Source of the DNA: Saxidomus purpurata | Lineage: Eukaryota; Mollusca; Bivalvia; Venerida; Veneridae | Direction of reading: 5' to 3' | Assembly (NCBI GenBank): GCA_022818135.1 | Contig: JAFMSR010000003.1 | Location: forward strand, 38,135,333-38,199,332 | DNA: 64,000 nt | In this document: positions 3,001-27,722 of the stretch, piece after piece | Numbering within the stretch: position 1 is the stretch's first letter | Layout: the number at the start of each line of letters is the position of its first letter | Program-made: the position numbers and the translations under genes | The notes under the pieces: generated by a model | Databases searched by the model: none | What the model saw: the letters and a program-made list of their open reading frames with translations, nothing else | Told to the model about the DNA's origin: nothing

Positions 3001-6000
3001 AATCCACAGTTTTGAAAAGGTAACATTTCATATCCTATTATTTATAAAGCCTTTTGGAATCTAAAACATAAAGCTAGATGGGTTTTCAGTAGAACACTTG
3101 TGTCACCGTCCAACACTTTGTCAGAATAACTAATGATTTCGTGATAAAATTTAAGTACAAAAAGGGACATAACTCTGTCAAATATGACCTTGACCTACAA
3201 AATTTGGCAGCATCATGTTGTGCATTGACCCTTCTGTCATAGGCAATTCAATTTGAAAGTCTGAAGAAGAAACTTTAAAAAATGGCAAAGTTTTAGCCAA
3301 CGTTAATTTTTTGTGACGGACCGACGGACAAAGCAACCCCTATGTAATGCCTTTTCTCAAAAAGAGCGACACAAAAATGAAATTGTAATAAAGCTTAAGT
3401 CACAAGTCATACTTCCAACCTTTTGAACTTTTCACATCTTCAAGCAGGGTATTTGCACGGTCAAGATCATTTTCCAAGAACTGTAACCTGAAGTAAAAAT
3501 GGGTACGGTCACAATATAAGTAGAACAACCATCTGAAAATCTGACACTAAAAGGAGATTTATAACAAACTACAGACAGCAGCCGATTGCATTTTCATGCA
3601 GAGTCAACAATGCTCAAATGTTATTTCTTTCTGTCCATCTTTTGTTAAAATCTAATACCACAAAGTGTCATACCTTCTTTTTTAATTTTCACAATGGCAA
3701 TGCAAAAATATATAATCTCATTTTCAATATACATACTTTTTATGTTTCTGATCTAACTGCATTTTATGTTGTTCTAGTTCTGACTGTAAGTCTTGTAACT
3801 GTTGTGTATATTCCTGTTGTACCCTGTCTTGATCAGTCTGAAGATCTGTGAAGTTTTTTGTTAACTGTTGAACATTACTTTCACTTTCACAAAATTTCTG
3901 CTCAAACCTTTCTTTATCCACCTACAATAGAACGAAAACAGCAAACAATGCTCCAATTTTTAAGTAAAGATTGTAGCAAAACTGCATAAAAATGAAAATC
4001 AATCAAAGTCACTTCCTCAGAACTGTTAAATAGAATGATATTTAGAAACCGGAATTGTGTTCAACTGCTATATTTAATGATACTGAGCTTGGTCAACTTG
4101 AAATAAGCAAATTTTGGATACATTTTTCTGCTTTCACAAATGCAATACAGAGTATGGGTTTTTAGCTGACATTTGTTAACTTAAGTGTACCCTTTGTGAT
4201 ATACAAATTAGAATAACCTTTTGATAAATGATAATACTTATACCGAATGTTTGTCTTCAGTTAAATGAAAATAATGTGAACTGAAAGTAAATGTCCCTCT
4301 TTATATGTTTATAATGTCCATTTGCAGGTGAAAATTACGCCATTTTGTGTACTGATCTGAGAACATTCTGTGCTAAACAAAATGCTGATATGTCTATGCC
4401 ATACTAAAAAATAATTGTTTCAATGCATTGCTTGAGCCTCAAACGCTTAGTAAATCAATTCAAAGATGCATGCAAAATTTTAAGCAAGAACGACAAGAGC
4501 TGTCCCTCATAAGTGTCAAATGCACCCAAAGAGGTGTGTCTCAGTCTGTTACTTTGACTTTCAAAATTTGTTTTAATTCATTTTAAAATCATTCAATGTA
4601 TAACAGAGTTACAAACCAGACATTAACTTGTGCATATGTACAGGATTCAAAAATGTCAGACCTCTAAATTTGACCTTGACCTTCAAAGGAAGAACATGGA
4701 ACTTGCACATGACATCAATGTCATTTCCATGTGCTTAACAAGGATTCAAAAATGTCAGACCTCTAAATTTGACCTTGACCTTCAAAGGAAGAACATGGAA
4801 CTTGCACATGACATCAATGTCATTTCCATGTGCTTAACAATTGTGCCATGTAATTTTAAATCCTTTCATGCATGATAGAGTCACCATATACACAGAATTC
4901 CACAACCCTTTAACTGTAAGTGTCGCCTTGACCTTCAAGTTTGGGACCTGGATTTTGTATTCAAGTCATTGTCTTCATGTGCTGAACATTTGTGCCAAGT
5001 TATTTTAAAATCCTTCAATGCATGATAAAGTTACAGTCCAGACTCGATTGTGTGCATCACAATTACGGATTCCATTACCATTAAACTCTAAGTGTGAACT
5101 TGACATTTGTGCTACATGATTTGAAAAATTTGAAAATCCCTTAATGCAATACAAAGTTACAGCCCAGACACACAATAAAAAGAGAAGGGCAGAAGGACAG
5201 TATGATTTTTAGGGATGCAACGATACAGAGAATATCGGTACAATATCGATACGGACTGCTACCGATACGTATCGATACACAAGCCGAGTGTATCGATACA
5301 ACGCACTAATTCGAACATACTTTTTCCTGTGCCCAAAGTTTCTTTTACCAAAATGTAAAACGTAATTTCATTGGTCGCTTTTAATAAGACAGCCAATCAG
5401 CTTTCCCGGTACAACATAACGTTCGTTGAGAGATCCAAGATGGCGGACGAAACAACGTTAGTTGATCTCGCAAAACCAAATAAAGTGACATCAATAATTT
5501 GGAAATCCGGTTTATATTGTCGATGATAAAAGTACCGTCAGTCGTGGTAATATTGTGTGTAGATTGTGTCATAAACTCGTTAAGAATTGTAGAGGCACGA
5601 AAATATGTGGTTTCATCTTGAACGTCACCACAAGAAAGAGTACATGATACCAGGATTTATTATATTAATAACTTTTATGTATATACAATCCCTGATGATA
5701 CTCACCAACTCAAATGATCCTCAAAGCTTGCAGTGCAAGTTTCAGTCTTAGTTAATGTATTTATCATTTTCGATAATTTTGTTGATATCTTAGTGGAAGA
5801 GACAATGTTTTGATAAATGCCGAAAAGTAATCACTTATTCTTGAATTCTATATTATTAGTTATTTAGTATTGTGTATTTCTAGTCAGAGACAATGCAACA
5901 CATGACAGATGGTTCTTTAGTTCAACTGAAAACATGTTCTTGTTTAACAAGAATAAATAATAAAAATAACAAATATCTTTAAAATAACTGTTTAACTGAT

Positions 6001-9000: not shown

Positions 9001-12000
9001 TGCACAACTACACTTCCTACTGATGCTTCATGCCATCTTTAATGAAAAATGAACAACCGGTTATGGAGATTAAGAGAGGACAAGATTTTCAAGTTTCAGG
9101 CCCATGCGGCATTGACCTTTCTTTAACTGTATGACCCAAACGTTGTAATATGGACTAATACACTTCATACTCAGATGGTTCCCTCCAATTTTACTAAAAT
9201 CTAGCAGGAGGTTTTGGAGATGATGAGCAGACAAGATTTTCAAGTTTCAGGCCCCTGTGACCTTGACCTTTAGGGGCTTTGGGAATGAACAGCTTACATT
9301 TTCAAGTTTCAGGTGGGGTTTTAGAGATGGTTAGGGGACAATATTTCAAGTTTCAGTCCCCTGTGACTTGACCTTTGACTATTTGATGCAAATGTTGTAA
9401 TATGCACAAGTACACTTTATACTGATGTTTCTTGAAAAGTTTGATGTAATCCAACAAGGGGATTTGGATAGGAAGAGCAGGACAAGACTTTCTAGTTTCA
9501 GGCCTCTATGATCTTGACCTCCAACTATATGACCCCCAAATTATAATATGCATTACTAAACTTCATACTGGTGCTTCCCATGAAGATAAATGAAAATCCA
9601 AAAAGTAAAAGGTGACTTTCCTAATATGGCCCTTTCACTGACAAAACAGTCTAATTTAAGTAAAATTAGTTATCTGCTAGAAATGTCAAGTGTAGAAACT
9701 GCTCACAAGTTCATATATATACATGTATCATAGAACTAAATAACACACCTCTGACTCAGCTTCTTGGTTCCTCTTTTTCAGCTCTTGATGTAAGCATTCT
9801 TTGTCTTTACTCAGAACAGATACTGAAAATTCATCTCCCATTTATAACATAGTTTTTAATTCTTAATATTTATCAAATATAAACTATAAACCTGAAGTTT
9901 CTAATACAATATTTGATCTGCTGTACAATTCTTTTTTTAAAACTGATTCAAATGTCATCATGGTAATATTTATCAAAAATAAACTATAAACCTGAAGTTT
10001 CCAATACAATTAATGTACAATATTTTATCTATTTTTTTTCAAACTGATTCAAATGTCATCATGGTATCAAAACTCCAATTTGAAACAGATCAGACAGGAC
10101 ATTATCATGTTTCTCAGTGCAGCTGAGTGTGTTCACTTACTCTGGTTAGTTAATTGGTCATGTTCCTTATCTCTTGCTACTTGAAGTTTCTGAAACTTCT
10201 CTGACAAGCCCTGGCAAAAGAATGCATAGAAATGTTGGTAAACACAGCCACATTAAAACAGAATTTGATCAGCAATGCTGGTTACTCATAACCTTTAAAA
10301 ATAATTAAAATGCATGTCTTCAAGTTTGGATATTTATTGCTTTGTGTTATTCTCAGCTGATACATTGTATACAAAAATAAGACTGTGGCAGTTAAACAAA
10401 GTCAACTCCACTGGCAAGTATTGCAACACAAACTTGTGCAAAGAAAGGGCACAACTCCACTCTTGTTTTTAAAATGTTATATTAGACACATGCTGAATGC
10501 TAAAATGATGGTACTCCACATGTGTACAAAACTAGGGATTCAACTTAATATAGTAATAAACATTTCCACAAAGTTTGATTGAAATTGCATTAAGAATGTG
10601 GTTGATATGAACTGCTTGTGGGAGGACTACTAAGTGCCATAACATAATATGTCTGTTTGTGATTATAAATATTAAACAAACAAGTGTTTACCATTATATA
10701 ATAACATTCTGCAGCAAAACTTACTTCAAATTGGCTTTTATGTTCTTGTTCAAGGTATTTTATTTCTGTCTTTTCTGCCTCACCTAGAGCAATATATATA
10801 TATTCTTTGATAAATTAAAATTCTCTTTTTGTCAAGACCGTCCACTAATTGACATATGAGTTTCTAAAATCCTTTTACAGTTTTCATTAATGTTACCAAT
10901 GGCACATTTTAAAGTTTCAGACAAATCCATGATAAAGCCTAAATGCATTAATTAAATAAAGGGTTTGTACCAAAATTTTCAAACCTCAGTACATTAATAT
11001 CTGTATGAGATGTGTCAATTTACCATATACTGGATTCATAGCAGTTCTCGGGCTGTGCCAGATCTTTGTGCTTTTTTATGTTTTATACCTTTGCAGGTTT
11101 ATAAGCCAAATCATTATAGATATTTCAAAACAAAAGAAAATTGGTTAGGTGGTTTCGTTTACATGTTGTCATGCAGGTGGTCAAGGTTAGATTCCTACTT
11201 CGGCCTTTTTTTTCTTTTGTATTGTTTGGTCTTTTTATTTAAATTTATTACTTCTCTACAAGTTCAACAGCTATAAATCATTACTGTTAATATCTTTATC
11301 CATTGATCTATTTGTACAAGTTACCTAAACATGGTTTTAGTGAAAGTTATAGGATGTGAATCCGGATTTGAATTGTATTATTATTTAAAATATTAATGAT
11401 ACTTGATAAAAAGCAATAATACACTGTGCAACTTTTGATTCTGTCTTTGCAAGGTGATCCTTCAGCACTGAACAAAGATTTCTTGTTGCTGAAATTCTGA
11501 AAGAGGTAGAAGAATAAAAATTAAACTGTTATTTGAATTATACAGTTCTAAAAATAAGCAGTGGCCAATGGTCTCTCGCCTTTAAACATTTGTGTTCAGC
11601 CACTGCAAATTGTCTTTGTGTCAGTGGGATTTTATATACATTTTTAAAGCATTATTCATAGTTTCACAGCTCTCAAGTCATTTAAATTCGAATAGAATTT
11701 CATCACTGGCTTTATCATATTCAAATAATTTTCGATAACAAAAATTGCGTTTTAACATTTTAAAATGTGTGCTCCATTCATCTAGTAAGGAGAATTTCTA
11801 AGAGTGTCCGCTTTTTATCAACTTCAGAAGATCAATGTAGTACAGATGTAACATATTAATGTACTTACTTTTGCAGTATGTCTTCTCTGTTACTTATCTC
11901 CTCCTGGAAAGTCATGCTTATACTTTCATTCTGAAGCTGTAAAATGTAAATAACTTAAGTGCACAAGCTAATATAAACACATACTGTGTATGCAAGATTT

Positions 12001-17661: not shown

Positions 17662-20053
17662 CAACGCGTTGCAGTTGGCTTTGCCCGCTAGCTATTTTAG
17701 CAATCAATAAAATTACAATCTTACGTCACACAAAGGCGAATCTGAAACTATTAATAGAGCATGTAGATATCGGTTAACTCCTCCCCTCCGTTCTTTCATT
17801 GAAAAGGTCAAATAGGGGCGCATACGATCAGTCTTTATTTGATTCTGACGTTACGTTCCGAACGTGGAAAGAAAAATTGAAAGTCATAACAGAAGCAGTA
17901 TCGGATAAAGTATATATTAAAGTGCCATTTGGTAAATCGGAGGAGCCAGGTGTACACTAATTGATGAAACTTTCCCAAAACGTAATGAAATAAACTATGG
18001 AAGTTTTATTGCGTACCTCAACGAATATCCCAACTAATTGCACGCAAGTGCTTTTTGCTACATACGATGGCCGCCCTTCGCAAAGGCAGACTAGATGTAA
18101 TATCAGTTTGTAAAATTGTTCTGTCTTGCAGTCGAAATATTGAGGCTACTCCACGAGGTAATACATGTACATAAAAATAAAAATAAAACACATTAACAGC
18201 GCACTTTTAAAGTAAGCAAGATTAAAATGTTATCGCAATACTGCAAATAGATCTAAAATGTCTGGGCTAGGTAAAACAGGACTTTCAATATTTATTCGTT
18301 CTAATTTTTTTCCCCTCAACATTTCGGCTAGCCTGCGGACAACCTGGACCCGGGACAGAAAAGCCGCTTGTCTGACAGCAGAAAGTCCTGTGCCAGACAT
18401 GTCGGACCCCCTCTGTACTATGGGTTGGACATATACAGCAGCGTCCAATAGTCTAATTAATTTGGTGTTTCAGTGAGACCCCTTTCACAGATCTGTTATT
18501 TATAACTAGAAGGTGAACAACTTGAAAATATCAACCTATAAAATCGGTTTGCCTTTGAAGTCGAAATAGTTAGACTAGCACTCTACCAAGTTCTCATATA
18601 TATGTACAAATGTACATTAAATGTTGACTTTCCGAGAGCTTCTTAATTGTGATTTTACCGATAGCCATTTGAAAAACAATAACACTGAACATAAATTAGT
18701 ACGCATGAGTATATCCAGGATATTATAATATTATTGTGTATATTTTACTTCAGTGACACTGATGACACAGCGGTCAGTGCAAAACAAAATGTTTCACTAA
18801 GACTGTCGTTTCCCGCAGATTCTTTAAATATGTTTTCTTTATCATTCGTCGAATGTTTCTTCTTCAAAATGTGAAAAAAGCCGAAATAAATTTACAAAAG
18901 TTTTGAGTAATCGTGTAACTCTGCAGTCATGTGTCCAACATTTCGCTCATGTATGGCTACGGGCGGTAGACAGGATGCAGTATCTAACACTCATCTACAG
19001 ATTTTTATATTGGTTGGAATAAAAAAGAATTGAAATACATGTAAATATATGAGATAAAGTGAACGTTATTAATCTACTGGTCTGACTGTCATGTCTGCAG
19101 TTTCATTTTTATGGCCGGAGTAACTACGCCCCTGTTCATTGATTTGTATTTTTTTGTTAAACTCAACGCCCGACCGCACGGCTTTTAAAGTAAAAACACT
19201 GTTCACAAGGGAAAATTGTCGAGTTCACTGTCGGCAATAGAGAGGGAACTTGGGTATGATAATACAACGTCCGTACAAGTAAAGATTTTGGCAGATGCAC
19301 TGATTATGTCAGTACGTACAGTACGGCATTAGATACTTAGTATGTCAGCAGACTTCCTTACCATTAGTGGCGACGCTCTGCGAAATAAAGGAGTTCCAGT
19401 ACCGGAGACAAAAATATTTTTCACGCATCGATGTACTCAATTATTGATAATTTCGTCAATTTAATTACTTTCGTTGACATTTTGTTCCACTTTGGCAACA
19501 AAATTGACGAGGCGAGTTGAGAAACAGATTGAAAAACGCATTTTATGAAAAATGCATCACAATATATTTTTTCAACAGACGTCATTATGAATTGTGTAGG
19601 ATAACATGTTACTGCAATGGAATTCCGATGTGTAAAGTTCCGTGAACATAATTTACATGTAAACTTATTCATAAACTTACGGTCTACACTTATAAATGCA
19701 ATGATACCGTAGCTCAATCGCTGTAATTGAAGGAGATCTCTTTTATATATATTAATCAACATTTTAAATAAAACAGAAGTTCGAGTCACTACAAAATACG
19801 CGAAGAAACCTATATTTAACATTATTAAATACTGTTTGTCACTTGCATTAAAATTACCATGCGGGTTTTTGGGCGGAGCAAATTGACGACGTGAGAAAGA
19901 AGCTGGACGCTCGCACCTAAATGTCCTTGAATGGGGAGGAGTTAACCTATAAACTAGCTCTAATAATAGTTTCAAAATTGCGCTATGAGTGACGTAAGAT
20001 TATAACTGTATCGATTAAGATAGCGATCGGGCAAACCCAACTGCAACGCGTTG
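17662..20053. mobile_element. 2.4 kb element with ~130 bp terminal inverted repeats and TA flanks
   Basis: The left end CAACGCGTTGCAGTTGG.. at 17662 matches the reverse complement of the right end at 20053. The match runs through 'ttgcccg.tagctat.tta', 'atcttacgtcac', 'gaaactatta.tagagc' and 'ggttaactcctcccc', so arms extend over about 130 bp with mismatches. Both sides are flanked by TA (17660-17661 and 20054-20055), consistent with a TA target duplication. No transposase motif is recognised; the longest ORF (minus, 19421-19975, 184 codons) starts inside the right arm and resembles nothing I know. The interior carries blocks (18100-18150, 18468-18580) shared with 28240-28440. Confidence 0.75.
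18468..18600. repeat. Family D block (copy 2)
   Basis: 'tttggtgtttcagtgagacc', 'cctttcacagatctg' and 'aatatcaacct.taaaat.ggtttgcctt.gaagt.gaaatagt' match 28230-28350. A truncated copy is at 16845-16880, and only the last part ('atcggtttgccttcgaggtg') appears near 20702. Non-coding. Confidence 0.7.
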
Positions 20054-21063
20054 TAAGGTATTCCTTGTAGTCTATATATACACAAAATAGATAGAAAATG
20101 TGAAATAATATAAATTTTACAAGCTTTAAATTGTTATTCCTTCTTTTTCATCAACTTGTTTTGCTAACTGGTCCGTCGTTATAAAAATAGCAGGGTGTGC
20201 GAAACCGGGTCCACTATTTAAGGTCAACCGGTCACATTTAAGATGTTTATAATCGAGCTGACCAATGGTATGACGTCATTATAAAAGAAAGTGAAAGTAG
20301 AAAAAAATTGTGAAAGAATGTTCATTTTTTATGATCAGTACAGTTAATGTTTTGATTATTGAGCTCTTTTATGTAATTAGATAATTTGTCGTGAAAAGTG
20401 TGCGAAATCGGGTACACTATTAAACTCTAATTGTTAAAACCTAAACATGCAAGTTTACACATACAGCATGGAATGCAGTTTATTTTCGTATTTCACCGAT
20501 TGATGCCGGTGTGTGAATAGGTAAACGTAACTTGGAATTGAGTAACATTTTAAAAATTTATCCTATCATGTTAAATCAAATACATTTAAATATTGGATTT
20601 TATTGCGTTTATAAGTGCCCAACAGAATTTCGCTAGGGATATGTTCCCAGTTACATTGTATTTGCACATCAAAGTGAGACGTAAAAGGCAGACTGCTATA
20701 AGATCGGTTTGCCTTCGAGGTGGAAACAGTGAGACTACTGAAAGGTAATATAGTCTGGGAGGGTATTACCAGTGGTCATATATTACCGGGGCATTCCGAA
20801 AAATGATCCAAACGTGACTTGTGAATGACGTCACAACATAATTTGCATATTGTACATAGACACTGATACATGCTAAATAACATGGTGTGAGATTTTCAAA
20901 TTTTAGGTATACGAACCCTAAATGTTCCAACCCCAACACTCGCTGTATCAATCACTGTTATTTAACAGTGTTTCTTTTAAATGTTTTAACACTTGGCTTG
21001 CTAAAACATATTTTTATTACATTATTTTATATGTCAGTGATTAAAAAATTGCGGAGGATTAAC
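20054..21063. other. Intergenic, repeat fragments only
   Basis: Two copies of the motif gtgtgcgaaaycgggtmcac (20195 and 20399), a family D fragment near 20702, and 'gggagggtattaccagtg' at 20758, which recurs inverted near 22120-22140 ('caccggtattaccctcc'). No gene is supported. Confidence 0.4.
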
Positions 21064-22041
21064 CTAGAGTGGGTGGACCAATGCTCGGCGTAAAAATGTC
21101 ATGTAATAAATCATCAGCAGGAATCTATGTCAACTAACCTCAAATTTTTATGCTCAGTTTGAAGACCAATCTCAACCTTTCAACCGTCGTTGTTTACATA
21201 TTTAAAGTCACATGGTGACGTATTTGGCGGGAGCTAAATATAGGCCTAGTAAAACTGGTGCGGTTCGTCCGAAATTACTTCAGCTGCCATACGCCAGATA
21301 CACTCAAAGGTTTTGTTTTTGAAATATTTCTGTTTTAAACCGATGTTGAAGATGTATTTAACACAATTTAGTAGTAATATGGATTGGAATAATCTGTTAA
21401 GTGCGTTAACATTAAATTGATTTACACTGTCTTTCTCCCAGACTTTTGTTGAGTTTTACGAACCACCTTTGACATGTCTATATACAAACACATTTAACAA
21501 ACATTGTATAGAAAAGTTCATACAATTATAAACTTGATTCATTTACTGATTTAATCATCTATAATGTGGTCTGTATTTTTTTTAAATAACAATAAGTAAT
21601 AAAAAATATACGTAGGAGATTTATGTTTTGAGAATCGTAGGAACAAGACAATATTGCTAGAGGGGTCCGTATAGATTGGCGCTATTTTACTTAATTATAT
21701 ATTATAAAATAAGAAGAATTAGGTAATATTTAAATATAAATGACTTTTCTATAAATTTTACGACTCAATTTCTTAAAAAGTACCTGTATACAGGAGAAAT
21801 CTTGTTTTAATTGAGTATGAAAAGCATTACGGGGACGGGTTTTACTCTAGGTCTGCGGCTCTACTATAGTCACGTGACCATTCCGGAAGTCAACCGCATC
21901 GGATAAAATCACACACGATGTAAACAAATTTAACAGCACCCAAAAGTTAAGACTTTTTAATGATTATTTTCGGAAAATCACAAAGAAACCTCATTTACGC
22001 CGAGCATTAGTATACGCCGAGCGTTGGTCTACCCACTCTAG
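21064..22041. mobile_element. Inverted-repeat element (~978 bp), MITE-like
   Basis: The left end ctagagtgggtggaccaatg...cggcgta (21064-21092) is the reverse complement of the right end 22013-22041 with two mismatches. A second partial copy of the inner part ('tacgccgagcattag') lies just inside the right arm at 21997-22010. No ORF of note lies inside. Target duplication is not evident. Confidence 0.65.
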
Positions 22042-22676
22042 TGACTTACCTGAATAACACTGACTCGATTGTATTAGTTATATTTGACCTGAAGAACGAC
22101 ATGGGATAGAAATTTACCAATACACCGGTATTACCCTCCAAGACTGTTACTAAAAATAGACTAAATGGTGTTTACGTTTGCGTATGTTTTACCTTGAAAT
22201 TCTTAACATGATCTGTCTTTTACATAAATTATCAATAAAAGGTATAGGACAGTAACAAATCAAATATATCAGGTGAATGGTCATAAATCTTTTCAGAATT
22301 TGTTTCTGAATTTTAAATACACCGGTAATACAACCCACCAGGATAATAAAAAGTCCTCAACGGGTCACTGAAACAGGTCCTCCTACGATACAACGCAAAG
22401 CTCCAAGAAAAGTGTATTTCTGACTGATTCAGACTGAGAGTTAATCTCAAAACAATAGGCTGACAGTTCAATTTCGTCAAAGTGTATGGAAATTTGAATG
22501 ATACGCGGGTGTTAACCTGTTTATTCGTCTGCTGCTGGCGTTTCATGTCAAGGTCAGTGTTCTGTTTGATTGACAACCGAACAATATTTGACCTGGCTCC
22601 GTGCTTTGATAATTGACGAAAACATACTCGGGATTTATCGAAAGTGGGCATTTAAACTAGGTTACTGCTTTATATA
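22042..22676. other. Intergenic, no gene supported
   Basis: Contains 'acaccggtattaccctcc' and 'acaccggtaatac' near 22120 and 22318. A 112-codon minus-strand ORF (22313-22651) has no recognisable features and is treated as chance. Confidence 0.4.
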
Positions 22677-22700
22677 TGTCACAGGGTGAGAAAAATGTGC

Positions 22701-22772
22701 AGCCAGACCGGGGCTCGAACCCGGGGCCTTTCGCTTACAGGGCGAATGCTCTACCGACTGAGCTACCGGGCC
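22701..22772 (-). tRNA. tRNA-like sequence (Thr-UGU-like) inside LTR 1
   Basis: A 72 nt cloverleaf fold. Acceptor GGCCCGG pairs with TCTGGCT (one mismatch plus wobbles), D stem GCTC/GAGC, anticodon stem TTCGC/GCGAA with loop CCTGTAA (anticodon TGT), T stem CCGGG/CCCGG with TTCGAGC. The A box TAGCTCAGTCGG fits the Pol III consensus exactly; the B box GGTTCGAGCCC has one mismatch. A T5 run follows at 22691-22695 and would terminate Pol III. Position 33 is C rather than the near-universal U, so it is probably a promoter module and not a working tRNA. Confidence 0.7.
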
Positions 22773-22954
22773 GCTTACACACATTCTCCCCAATTGTGAA
22801 CTAAGTCCGAACCGTGACATTCTCCCCCACCATATTGAAATTCGTCCTCGAATTTCGTACGGGTTAAGAGAACAAGGTAAACATGATCTCGAAGTATATA
22901 TCCAGTCACAGTCCCATGTTGGGCGCCAAATGTCACAGGGTGAGAAAAATGTGC

Positions 22955-23029
22955 AGCCAGACCGGGGCTCGAACCCGGGGCCTTAATTCGCTTACAGAGC
23001 GAATGCTCTACCGACTGAGCTATCCGGTC
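22955..23029 (-). tRNA. tRNA-like sequence inside middle LTR
   Basis: Same layout as in LTR 1 but diverged. The acceptor 5' strand is GACCGGA, the variable loop is three bases longer (75 nt total), and the anticodon loop is TCTGTAA. D and T arms, A and B boxes and the downstream T5 run are kept. Confidence 0.65.
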
Positions 23030-23219
23030 GCCTACACATTTCTCCCCTTTTTCATAATTAAGTCCGTAACCGTGACATACTTCCCCACTATGTTGAAATA
23101 CGTCCTCGAATTTCAGTGAGTACTATCAAATTAGCAATTACAGATGTCGGAGACAGATCTTGTAATGCCGTCACAGTCCCATGTTGGGCGCCAAATGTCA
23201 CAGGGTGAGAAAAATGTGC

Positions 23220-23291
23220 AGCCAGACCGGGGCTCGAACCCGGGGCCTTTCGCTTACAGGGCGAATGCTCTACCGACTGAGCTACCGGGCC
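23220..23291 (-). tRNA. tRNA-like sequence inside LTR 3
   Basis: Identical to the copy in LTR 1, including A box, B box and T5 terminator. Confidence 0.7.
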
Positions 23292-23338
23292 GCTTACACA
23301 CATTCTCCCCAATTGTGAACTAAGTCCGAACCGTGACA

Positions 23339-23831
23339 TATATATATGTAATTAATACAAACAGGGACATATACTATATATACTGTATATAGGTCCGTGA
23401 TACATATATGAATAATTTATTCATAAATAATGATGCTCAAGGCATGTGGTTGCTTCAGACATATGACCACAATTACAGGTTCAACATTATGTTAAACATG
23501 TGGCTGTTAATACGCTTTGAAACAGGTTGGTTAGTTTGTCCTACACATTGTACAACGTTAACATGAAAAAAGATATACTCAGTATAACGTTTCTAATTTT
23601 ACAATTGGTATCATATGACGTATTTATCATTCTTTTCTCCAGTTGCATTACAACTCTGAGAATAATATATATATATAATGTGTACTGTAAGGATGGTAGT
23701 GTTTTCGTTGACTTCCTGTTTGTCACCAAGAGTTTTGTGTATAAAAGAGGTTGTGGTTTCGTCACTCTTATTCAATAATTATCTAAGTCCCTGTAAAGGG
23801 TACGACAGTACAGGAAGATAGATCTATCTAA
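23339..23831. other. AT-rich intergenic segment
   Basis: Contains a run of 'tatata' and palindromic 'ggacatatactatatatact' near 23367. Overlapping ORFs on both strands at 23527-23778 have no protein-like composition. No gene is supported. Confidence 0.4.
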
Positions 23832-23898
23832 GATGGATGGATGGATGGATGGATGGATGGATATCGATCGATCGATCGATCGATCGATCGATAGATAG
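23832..23898. repeat. Microsatellites (GATG)n then (ATCG)n
   Basis: About eight GATG units (23832-23862) run into about seven ATCG units (23863-23892) and two ATAG units. They abut the 3' end of the minus-strand LINE, so they may be its 3' tail repeat. Confidence 0.85.
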
Positions 23899-24163
23899 GT
23901 TAAGGGAGTATTAGTGTCAAATTTTATTCAGAAAATGACAAAAATAACATACTAATCAAACTATACATAAACAAAAAAATATACATTCAAAATATAAAAT
24001 TTTGTTATCTACATCTACATAATACTCCGAGACAATCAATACTGATTATGATACGGAGGCGCAGGTCGTGTGACAGTTGTTAAAAGTGAGATACATCTCA
24101 CGAAGTGCAATGTTAAAAGAATAAAAAGTCTACAGTGCTAAGATTAAAAACAAGAGAGAAAGC

Positions 24164-26008
24164 TTAATTTAAGTGTATAGTGGCCAGCCGCTCAGCAAAT
24201 AGACTAAGGCTGGGGCTGGACTGTACATGGCTTGGGAGGGTGTTCCAGAGGCGAATTGTTCTAGGAAAAAAGGAATTTAAGTGATATTGTGTACGTGACT
24301 GTGGAATTAGGTAGTTCAGGTTCCTGGTAGGGGTGAGGTGCTGGTGGTCTACAAGGACTAGATTGTTTTTGATTTTATATAAAACAAGAAGGGAGGTGTG
24401 TAGACGACGTTGTTCTAAGGTTTGCCAATTTAAGGTGTTAATCATTTGGGAAACACTGCTTGTATAGTCATAGTTATTACAGACATAGCGTGCAGCTGAT
24501 CTATTTATCATTTCAATTTTGCTAGTAAGGGACTTTTGCCATGGATGCCAAACAGTTGAACAATATTAAGTTGGGGGCGGACATAGGTGTTATAAGCCTT
24601 TATTTTGATTTCCTTATTGTTTGTTTTGACATTTCTTCTGATGAAGCGGAGAGTGTTTTTTGCTTTAGATGTTACATTATTTATATGGGCTGACCAATTC
24701 AGATCTTTAGAGATGGTTACCCCAAGATACTTAGCGGCATCGGTGCTTTTTAATTCAGTGCCATGCAGAATGTATGGGAAGATGGTAGGGTTCCTTTTTC
24801 TAGTTATCCGCAACACCTCACACTTATCAGGGTTGAATTCCGTTGACCATAGTTTTTCCCACTATTCAAGAGCAACCAGGTCACTTTGTAGGATTTGGGA
24901 GTCTGATGAAGATTTGACTGTCAGATATACAATGGTATCATCTGCAAACAGTCGGGCTTTGCTTTTTATTGTGTCGGGAATATCATTTATGTAAGAGAGG
25001 AAGAGGCAAGGGCCGAGGACAGAGCCTTGGGGGACCCCAGATAGGACAGGTAGGGTGTCTGAAGTGCAGCCATCTACTACAACTCTTTGGGTGCGGTCCT
25101 TTAAAAATGACTTAATCCACTGTGATGCCATTGGGTGGACTCCCAGCTGTTCGAGTTTGTAAGTAAGTTTATTGTGATCAACCTTGTCAAATGCCTTACT
25201 AAAATCCATAACAATTACATCTGTTTGTTGACCATTTTCAAGGTTGTCAAAGACCTCTTGCGTGAAACTGATGAGTTGGCATTCCCTGTTTGATATTATT
25301 TTTGTTTTTTTGCGTTTCACAGCTATGCTTAGATCGAAAGCCATGCTGGTACTGGCTTAGTAGGTCATTATTATCAAAGTGTGTCATGATATTTGAGACC
25401 AAGATGTGCTCCATGAGTTTGGAGGCTATGCAGGTTAGAGAGATTGGCCTGTAGTTACTGGCCTTGGACTTAGGACCTTTCTTATATACGGGAGCGACGA
25501 CTGCACTTTTCCAATCTGAGGGGACACTACCTGTTTCTAGGGATAGATTGAAAATCTTAGTAAGGATAGGTGCGATTTCGTGGTGGAGCTCTTTAAGTAC
25601 TTTGGGTGATATTTCATCAGGGCCACATGCTTTATTTGGGTTAAGCCCAAGTAGTAATTTGTCAACAACTTCCACAGATATTGAGATCTCTGGCATCTTA
25701 GGTGTTGATGTGGGGCAAGCAATTTTCTTACACAGCTGTTTAAGACCGAGTGGTTGAGGTTTGGAGAATACCGATTCAAATTGCTTGTTCAAAATATTTG
25801 CTTTGTCCACAGGGTCAGTGTAAGTGAGACCCTTGTCCTTCAGAGGCGCTACACCACAGTTTTCTGTTTTATTATGCTTTATGTATGAATAAAACTTTTT
25901 GTTTCCTAACCTGGAGTCGCCATCAAAAATGACAGATTCCAAATATGACCAGTAAGCAAGTCTAATTTGCTTCTGAATATTATACTCAAGGGCCTTGAAT
26001 GATTTTGT
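24164..26008 (-). pseudogene. LINE reverse transcriptase, broken
   Basis: Fragments in order: linker with YWSYLESVIFDGDSRLGNK, RT fingers with VVAPVYKKGPKSKASNYRPI and the HGFRSKHSCET motif, palm with DFSKAFDKVDHNKL, SGVPQGSVLGP and the catalytic FADD box, then YLGVTISKDLNW and the C-terminal LWNTLPSHVQ typical of jockey/CR1 elements; stop at 24164. Defects: a 32 bp insertion at about 25278-25309 shifts the frame within the HSCETQLISF region, an in-frame TAG follows the palm (about 24859), and a single-base loss near 24560 shifts the frame again. It is non-functional. Confidence 0.9.
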
Positions 26009-27033
26009 TTGGTATACATTTCTCAGTTAATTCGGTTTGCCAGAGCGTGTAGTTATGTTGAGGATTTCAATGAACGTAATCAATATATTACAAATAAACT
26101 TCTTCAACAGGGCTACCGTTATTACAAATTGCGTAAATATTTTGCTAAATTTTACTATCGTAATTCTGATTTGGTTTTGAAATTCAATAGTAATCTAAAG
26201 ACTCTTCTGTGAGAAGGTATTTCAAAACCCGATTTTTATGGGGATGTGTTTTACAAACTTCGTAAGATTTTGGGTCATGGCAATTTTCCAACTGTATTTG
26301 CTAAAATTATAAAACGTTTTGTTAAAAGAGGTTACGACCCAACTGTTTTGAGACACACCGCATGTTTGGTGTTCAACCCGTTTACAGTTGGACGCTACAT
26401 GCCTCTTTGATTGTGTCTGACGGAAGAGGGGAGGACTCTGTGATGGGCAGTTTTTAAATCCCACTGGGACGAAACTGTTTTGATTTCTGTCCTCTGGCCT
26501 GTTTCGTCGGGCCCTTAAGGGTGTTTCTCTCTGGTGCTCTGCCTTCTGCAAAGGCATTGAGTACATACGTTTTTTGGTTCTCAAGGTTTGCTTTTTATAT
26601 ATTTATACACGAGCATTTTTGTGTTTTACATACCATGCCTTTTGTTTCCATTGCGTGTGTTAGAGATTCACCTAGCAGGGATTACTTTTATTTACACTGT
26701 CCTGTGACTTTGGAACATGGTGGGGGTAAGAGTGAGGTTGGGTGCGCACCATAAACCGGTTTAAGCTCCCCAGTGGGTTTTTTGCCACTGACCGTTCAAA
26801 GGCGGTTCCCCCACTGTGTTCCTTTAATTGTTCGTTTTGTCCCCGTGTGTTTGCTTTGTATGCTAGTTTGTGTTGGTAGTGTATATGTGTGGTACATGAT
26901 TGTACATTGTCGTGTGTGCGTGTGTGCGTGTGTGTGTGTAGTGTTTACACTTAGGTGCCATGGGTGCCCAATGTGTTGGGTTCGATGGGCTGCGTCGTTT
27001 TGGTACGTGGCATTCCCTGTTTGATTTTATTTT
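26009..27033 (+). mobile_element. 5'-truncated second retroelement nested in the LINE, opposite orientation
   Basis: Starts in a coding tail on the plus strand (VYISQLIRFARACS..., FNERNQYITNKLLQQGYRYY) that I recognise as a C-terminal segment following the RT of a retroelement family common in marine invertebrate genomes. A stop after KTLL and a shifted continuation (PDFYGDVFYKLRK, CLVFNPFTVGRYM) end near 26410. The 3' part (26410-27033) is non-coding with a (GT)n run at 26914-26940. The LINE endonuclease and RT reading resume on either side, with similar 'tgattttgtttgg'/'tgattttatttttg' junctions that could be target duplication. Exact ends are approximate. Confidence 0.7.
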
Positions 27034-27722
27034 TGTTTTTAGGTGTGGGTTCTGTTTAGATCTCTTAAGTTTTGTGTACATTTTGTCACGCTTACGTATT
27101 TGCCTTAGGATTGTTGGGGTTAACCAAGGGAGATCAATTCGTGACTTAGTTAGCTTAGTTGGAATGTGTAAAGAGCTAAGACGGTGAAGTTCTTCTTTGA
27201 ACACATTCCAAGCTGATGTAGGGTTTGGATAGACAGAGTTTCCAAATTTAGTTCCAAACTCTGAGAGGTCCCGCTTAAAGTTGACCCAGTTTGCTTTACT
27301 ATATCTCTTAAGTAACCTTTTGGGCTGGAGGGGTCTGCCTATTTTTATGTCTAATTCATGGAAAACTATATCATGGTCGGAGGTGCCTAGACTTGGGAGA
27401 GTTTTAGTGTTGTGGACTAAAACAGGGGAGTTTGTCAGAAAGAGGTCTAGGATATGCTCGTTCCTGGTTGGGATATTAACCATTTGTTGCAAATTGAGGA
27501 GGTTTATTCTATTAAGGAAGCCTTCATACAGTTCTTTGAACTTGCATTTGGACTTCAAGGACTCAAATGACCAATCTATGTCTGAGAGATTGAAGTCACC
27601 TAATAACCATATAATGCCATTTTTGGTATTTTGGATAAGGACAACCATAACTCTGAAAGGGATTCTTCATCATTTTCATGGGGTTTGTAATAGGTACCTA
27701 CATAGATATCGGTACCTACATA
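27034..27722 (-). pseudogene. LINE endonuclease fragment
   Basis: Minus-strand apurinic-endonuclease-like segment: DIYVGTYYKPHENDE (shifted frame), IIWLLGDFNLSDIDW with the GDFN motif, later SLGTSDHDIVF with the SDH motif, then a linker ending KLKRSKQNPHLKTK where the foreign element interrupts. The catalytic N-terminal residues are missing through 5' truncation. Confidence 0.85.

Follow-up and report, generated by a model that had tools for sequence, protein, structure and literature searches.

Do three tRNA-like units lying in tandem on one strand of a clam genome form a gene cluster, or do they belong to a mobile element that carries a tRNA in its own terminal repeats? The units lie in the window, the 64,000-nucleotide stretch of Saxidomus purpurata DNA analysed here (contig JAFMSR010000003.1, positions 38,135,333 to 38,199,332), within 662 bp of its minus strand (22677-23338). 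An earlier note on this DNA had called the sequence a miniature LTR retrotransposon with a tRNA-type unit in each LTR; its layout, dispersal and target duplications uphold that call. The note had also implied that the element was new in kind, which does not hold: the design is already published as Helenus/TRIMp3 (Kojima 2024, PMC10886601), and the window element is a new member of Helenus. Taken together, the element is very probably a Helenus-type TRIM in the form of an A-B-A heterodimer, with a life cycle that would involve Pol III, a Gypsy element and tRNA-Lys.

Along the minus strand, on which all its parts lie, two outer LTRs of type a (143 bp each) enclose internal domain 2 (118 bp), a middle LTR of 147 bp and internal domain 1 (111 bp), in that order. 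The 5' LTR, of subfamily A (23196-23338), holds a tRNA-Thr(TGT)-like unit at 23218-23291 and a run of five T residues, a possible Pol III terminator, at 23210-23214. Internal domain 2, of subfamily B (23078-23195), begins with TT followed by a primer-binding site (PBS) at 23174-23193, and ends in the polypurine tract (PPT) GTGGGGAAGTA at 23078-23088. In the middle LTR (22931-23077), B-type in its 5' part and A-type in its 3' part, the tRNA-Thr(TGT)-like unit lies at 22953-23029 and the T5 run at 22945-22949. Internal domain 1, of subfamily A (22820-22930), repeats the scheme: TT, a PBS at 22909-22928, identified by a PBS scan and comparison with host tRNA-Lys 3' ends, and the PPT GGTGGGGGAGAA at 22820-22831. 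The 3' LTR, again of subfamily A (22677-22819), has its unit at 22699-22772 and its T5 run at 22691-22695. Every part that the earlier note had listed, from three LTRs of 143-147 bp to two non-coding internal domains with PBS and PPT, was found in place.

The PBS, TGGCGCCCAACATGGGACTG, starts two bases past the LTR in both internal domains, as the note had said, and both PPTs directly adjoin the next LTR. With up to three mismatches allowed, the PBS matched the window twice and none of 100 shuffles. No open reading frame of at least 100 aa lies inside the 662 bp. The element is flanked by the 4-bp repeat TATA, at 23339-23342 on its 5' side and at 22673-22676 on its 3' side; in these TA-rich flanks 4 and 6 bp both match, and the duplication is weak taken alone. 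A second PPT-like motif, GGGGAGAATGTG or similar, sits just upstream of the tRNA unit once per LTR (element positions 29, 292 and 548) and looks like a repeat of the junction between PPT and LTR start. When 44 residues around the open frame KFEDEFQYGGGECHG, at the PPT end, were used for a protein search, nothing matched.

How far have the three LTRs diverged? The outer two are identical (143/143). The middle LTR differs from them by 17 substitutions and 4 gap columns over 147 alignment columns. Thirteen of these substitutions fall in the first 48 columns and four in the tRNA unit (76 columns); the final 34 columns, T run included, have none. The A box TAGCTCAGTCGG and the B box GGTTCGAGCCC do not differ among the three LTRs, and each LTR has a single TTTTT, downstream of its tRNA unit. 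The earlier note had predicted that standard tools would call three tRNAs here, and ARAGORN indeed named all three units tRNA-Thr(TGT). The Rfam tRNA model (RF00005) scored them at 58.7, 49 and 58.7 bits in element order (E values 3.7e-11 to 1.7e-8). In the host genome, ARAGORN made at least one tRNA-Thr call in each of 20 scanned loci, a chosen set that included the PBS-only loci L065 and L070. Tools that name these LTRs tRNA-Thr genes are likely to inflate tRNA counts in such genomes, on a scale indicated by the 256 exact LTR ends that one pattern alone recovers.

The cloverleaf that the note had seen in every LTR fared less evenly. ARAGORN and Rfam call a tRNA in all three LTRs; by minimum-energy folding, the middle unit forms no cloverleaf. 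For the outer units, folding was no better than that of shuffled sequences (z 0.57), of which 144 of 200 were as stable. Over 86 A-type LTRs drawn from 35 loci, the A and B boxes showed no significant conservation: two blocks of this kind reached the same level in 1365 of 7260 placements. The design of the LTR suggests that Pol III starts at the tRNA-like unit. The T5 run lies in the first LTR, so a full-length RNA would require Pol III to read through it, and the element thereby raises a question about Pol III itself. We propose that the polymerase would start at the tRNA-like unit, pass the T5 run of the first LTR and stop in a later one.

Perhaps the layout was a chance arrangement in one window? 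Using the 662 bp as query against the 1.135-Gb host genome, we obtained at least 51 matches, a lower bound in that 40 of 2431 candidates were scored, and retrieved 40 loci for comparison, the window's own among them. Helenus copies were spread over many chromosome-scale contigs. A 34-base LTR-end pattern had 256 exact matches and a pattern of LTR end plus PBS had 69; the reversed control gave 0 for each. Most retrieved loci were LTRa-int1-LTRa units, 391-403 bp long when single and complete, or arrays thereof, and L046 and L048 were arrays of the second subfamily, LTRb-int2-LTRb. Arrays had up to eight LTRs. Because the layout recurs across the host genome, we conclude that the window structure is not due to chance.

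Exact 4-bp target duplications flanked 16 of 28 complete unique insertions (8/16 single units and 8/12 arrays) and were absent from the other 12, compared with 6 of 756 comparisons in which left and right flanks from different loci were mismatched. Before redundant rows were removed, the count was 19/35 and the control 10/1190. Left out were incomplete copies, the inner pieces of longer arrays (L011, L016, L039 and L049), and L015, L021 and L041, whose flanks are the same as those of L013 and L038 and which were also dropped from the LTR-identity and PBS counts. Dispersed copies with duplications of 4-6 bp are what the earlier note had expected of a mobile element, as opposed to one tandem tRNA cluster lacking them, and the duplications adjoin TGTCAC/GTGACA-type ends, where it had placed the boundaries. 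Patterns for the LTR/PBS junction, the PBS, the LTR end and the PPT end, run against collections of genome contigs and viral contigs, had no matches except L001 and L002; within 701 bases of each there was no TRIM-like layout, and we judged both to be chance.

Two further forms were seen among the copies. L052, L055, L073 and L075-L078 carry a form of Helenus whose internal domain is shorter (about 73 matching nt); in L075-L077 this form is repeated in tandem at intervals of about 229 bp. At L051, L053, L059 and L069, pieces of Helenus LTR and internal domain lie back-to-back or inverted, and these are possibly further products of strand transfer.

The window copy is a heterodimer of two subfamilies, and its a-2-b-1-a order is also found at L031 (C13) and at L043 (C6, with a damaged 5' LTR); the flanks of the three loci are unrelated. 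When six LTRs from the two pure B arrays serve as reference, the middle LTR is B-type in its 5' part and A-type in its 3' part both in the window and at L031, and B-type throughout at L043. Since the join from B to A falls at differing points, the comparison suggests that heterodimer middle LTRs arose in at least two events. Either template switching or LTR recombination can yield B/A chimeric LTRs, and both have been proposed for Cassandra arrays (PMC7215508).

The identity of the outer LTRs fits a dimer that moved as one unit, and is weak evidence for it. As sole proof it is weakened by the identical LTRs seen elsewhere, in 3.3% of 3568 inter-locus A-LTR pairs and in 7 of 17 single-unit copies. 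Nor do the arrays support a general movement of whole arrays as units: in a set of 16, the outer LTR pair was the closest, or tied for closest, only five times. This set includes L038 and L041, which share flanks, and excludes L047 (two separate runs); the truncated outermost LTR of L032 was not compared. L031 has no exact target duplication.

Which tRNA would prime such an element? Over 19 nt, the window PBS equals the 3' end of host tRNA-Lys, TTT type, plus CCA. Among 66 PBSs, taken from the retrieved copies minus the three duplicate loci, 43 are exactly equal to a host tRNA-Lys 3' end (33 to the TTT form, 10 to the CTT form) and 23 have at least one mismatch. The LTR's own tRNA was ruled out as primer, matching the PBS at only 10 of 17 positions. 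A tRNA-Lys 3'-end pattern had 56 matches in the host genome, one of them the composite described below, and its control had none. Twelve of the 56 loci were retrieved and ARAGORN was run on eight of the 12: it called tRNA-Lys(CTT) at L083 and L084, tRNAs that it left unnamed, their anticodon being odd, at L090-L094, and no tRNA at L089. We read L090-L094 as intron-bearing tRNA-Lys(TTT) genes, a reading that is ours and not ARAGORN's. We regard tRNA-Lys as the most likely primer. Clusters of tRNA-Lys 3' ends were noted at G000:C6:2254317-2267798, where sampled members resemble intron-bearing tRNA-Lys(TTT) genes, at C16:34177513-34186270, and on C1043, where the CTT type repeats in tandem about every 1760 bp.

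We also asked which elements might supply Helenus with enzymes. The exact 19-nt window PBS had 98 genome matches, 69 of which follow a Helenus LTR end. Seven of the other 29 were examined (L011 and L095-L100): at L096, L098 and L099 the PBS belongs to copies of a second retrotransposon, and Helenus sequence is present at the remaining four. Pfam found RT, CCHC and PNMA-like gag domains in L096, and from its RT and gag domains we take this retrotransposon to be a Gypsy element.

A different Gypsy element emerged at L065, an LTR plus PBS match whose PBS runs on as tRNA. We read 9.8 kb around it (L082, G000:C5:6329000-6338800) and found a composite of Gypsy, half a tRNA-Lys and an inverted Helenus LTR at L082 346-9629 (G000:C5:6329345-6338628). 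The Gypsy 5' LTR lies at 346-892 of L082. Its frames encode gag-like, RT, RNase H and integrase domains, with the RT split over two overlapping frames. The 3' LTR starts at 9196, is 98% identical to the 5' LTR over 256 nt, and is cut near 9447-9449. Directly after the cut come 38 nt of the tRNA-Lys 3' half with CCA at the end; the 35 nt that precede this CCA are identical to sequence in L090-L094, five genes that have no CCA after them. Past the tRNA piece stand AA and then a complete inverted Helenus LTR, which differs from the window LTR at 1 of 143 positions. The outer flanks (..AAGATA / GATAGG..) place a single 4-bp repeat, GATA, around Gypsy and Helenus together. A genome search for one exact form of such an LTR-tRNA junction returned the C5 locus and no second case.

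We read the composite, a single locus in the assembly, as one integration of a Gypsy-Helenus chimeric cDNA, a putative trace of trans-mobilisation and of tRNA-Lys priming. The composite is probably a frozen intermediate of reverse transcription, in which strong-stop DNA switched to Gypsy RNA and integration followed at TGTCAC ends. Copying of a tRNA primer normally stops at position 58. Here Helenus plus-strand strong-stop DNA would have copied the tRNA-Lys primer beyond that point, and beyond the usual 18 nt, to about position 39. Position 37 of tRNA-Lys(UUU) is heavily modified, and the stop presumably lies near it. The strong-stop DNA would then have changed template, to the R region of a Ty3/Gypsy RNA that shared its particle, and primed the minus strand of that element, and integrase would have inserted the chimera through two TGTCAC ends, one from each element. 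If true, C5 would be direct genomic evidence that the machinery of an identifiable Gypsy family integrates a tRNA-bearing TRIM which is packaged with it and primed alongside it, and also that TRIM heterodimers arise by the same template switching.

The composite Gypsy and Helenus have LTR termini in common, and alignment of the Gypsy PPT region with both Helenus PPT regions gave scores matched by 0 of 6133 background pieces; the Gypsy PBS differs from that of Helenus. There are two candidate partners, one by PBS, the other by LTR ends and co-integration. The earlier note had proposed looking for a partner sharing both PBS and LTR ends, and of these two features the L096/L098/L099 element has the PBS and the C5 Gypsy the LTR ends. 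Helenus RNA would enter the particles of a Ty3/Gypsy element and be primed there by tRNA-Lys; template switches between packaged RNAs would give rise to chimeras and dimers, and Gypsy integrase would insert the product through the common TGTCAC/GTGACA ends.

How do other explanations fare? Ordinary tRNA-Thr genes, multiplied by local tandem duplication and owing nothing to a mobile element, might account for three tandem units in the window, for longer arrays elsewhere and for the ARAGORN calls, but single dispersed units with the same ends, PBS and PPT, and exact duplications at more than half of the insertions counted, make this explanation extremely improbable. The heterodimer could instead have formed in place, by LTR recombination between two neighbouring insertions, without ever arriving as a unit. 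Such recombination is a proposed route to TRIM arrays (PMC7215508; PMC6934838), and the small number of arrays with closest outer pairs agrees with it; the a-2-b-1-a order at two further loci with unrelated flanks, and identical outer LTRs inside a single 4-bp duplication, do not. We consider formation in place possible but somewhat doubtful, and prefer a dimer that arrived whole.

The same weighing applies to transcription and to C5. Pol II might transcribe Helenus from an unrecognised LTR promoter, with the tRNA-like unit a passenger or serving some other role; the T5 run inside the first LTR should halt Pol III, and box conservation among copies fell short of significance. However, the boxes are identical between A-type and middle LTRs whose 5' parts have diverged (13 of 48 columns, compared with 4 of 76 for the tRNA unit), and they are retained in the Helenus family as published (PMC10886601). 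We think Pol II transcription rather unlikely, and retain Pol III as the candidate. Nor do we favour an assembly error or a secondary rearrangement as the source of the C5 composite, which is a single locus known from the assembly alone and whose 4-bp match would be expected by chance in about 0.8% of cases (mismatched-flank control). The tRNA piece carries a CCA that the sampled genes do not encode, its two edges coincide with the Helenus LTR end (after AA) and with the cut Gypsy LTR, and both outer boundaries are LTR ends with GATA on each side. Hence an artefact or rearrangement at C5 is unlikely, and the chimeric cDNA remains our preferred reading.

Helenus has been described from six animal phyla, fungi and one plant, as TRIMs of under about 1 kb (published range 311-1263 bp) with two LTRs and no coding capacity (PMC10886601). 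In pteriomorphian bivalves that account lists 51 families, seven with tRNA-Thr-like units and some using tRNA-Lys; animal families make 4-bp duplications, and a Gypsy partner is inferred there from PBS similarity. It gives the boxes as TRGCY..YGG (A) and GGTTC (B), with Pol III transcription expected, not validated. The window family agrees in being short and non-coding, in its tRNA-derived LTR with both boxes, in its tRNA PBS and abutting PPT, and in its 4-bp duplications, and tandem arrays of one family are likewise reported in PMC10886601. Compared by description, not by sequence, our element departs from the published Helenus in being a heterodimer of two subfamilies, in having PBSs that correspond, in a single family, to two types of tRNA-Lys, and in the Gypsy-tRNA-Helenus composite. 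The dependence of small-RNA-promoter TRIMs on a partner is an open point in that paper; here the composite, together with the two forms of tRNA-Lys PBS, points to a primer and to candidate partners, and for mobilisation by Gypsy itself, we observed one composite locus and one retrotransposon with the same PBS. Within the open-licence PMC literature we found no further relevant paper among later Helenus work and, by title and start of abstract, no Gypsy-tRNA-TRIM chimera, which is no proof of absence in either case.

Cassandra, a plant TRIM, also carries a small-RNA gene with a Pol III promoter in its LTRs and forms tandem LTR-internal-LTR arrays, but its gene is a 5S rRNA where ours is a tRNA (PMC7215508, PMC10886601); in window positions 20000-26000, Rfam at gathering thresholds found nothing but tRNA. 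The animal element biv-TRIM resembles ours in its tandem arrays and GGGGAGA polypurine tract and differs in size, with terminal repeats of 202-218 bp and an internal domain of 77-80 bp against 143-147 and 111-118 bp here; it has no unambiguous PBS, and its description notes no tRNA unit in the LTR (PMC6934838). The tRNA-derived SINEs (SINE2) share a tRNA-like internal promoter, short length and lack of coding capacity, whereas they have no LTRs, PBS or PPT and are moved by non-LTR retrotransposons (PMC10886601). The window element has LTRs, a PBS, a PPT and 4-bp duplications, and does not fit a SINE inserted by target-primed reverse transcription.

Three other features of the window were noted. 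A broken non-LTR retrotransposon with RT and endonuclease domains lies near the element, at 24164-27648 on the minus strand. A match to SECIS_1 (26432-26493, plus strand; 38.7 bits, gathering cut-off 35) falls within transposon-like sequence, and positions 4642-4839 hold a perfect 99-bp tandem duplication.
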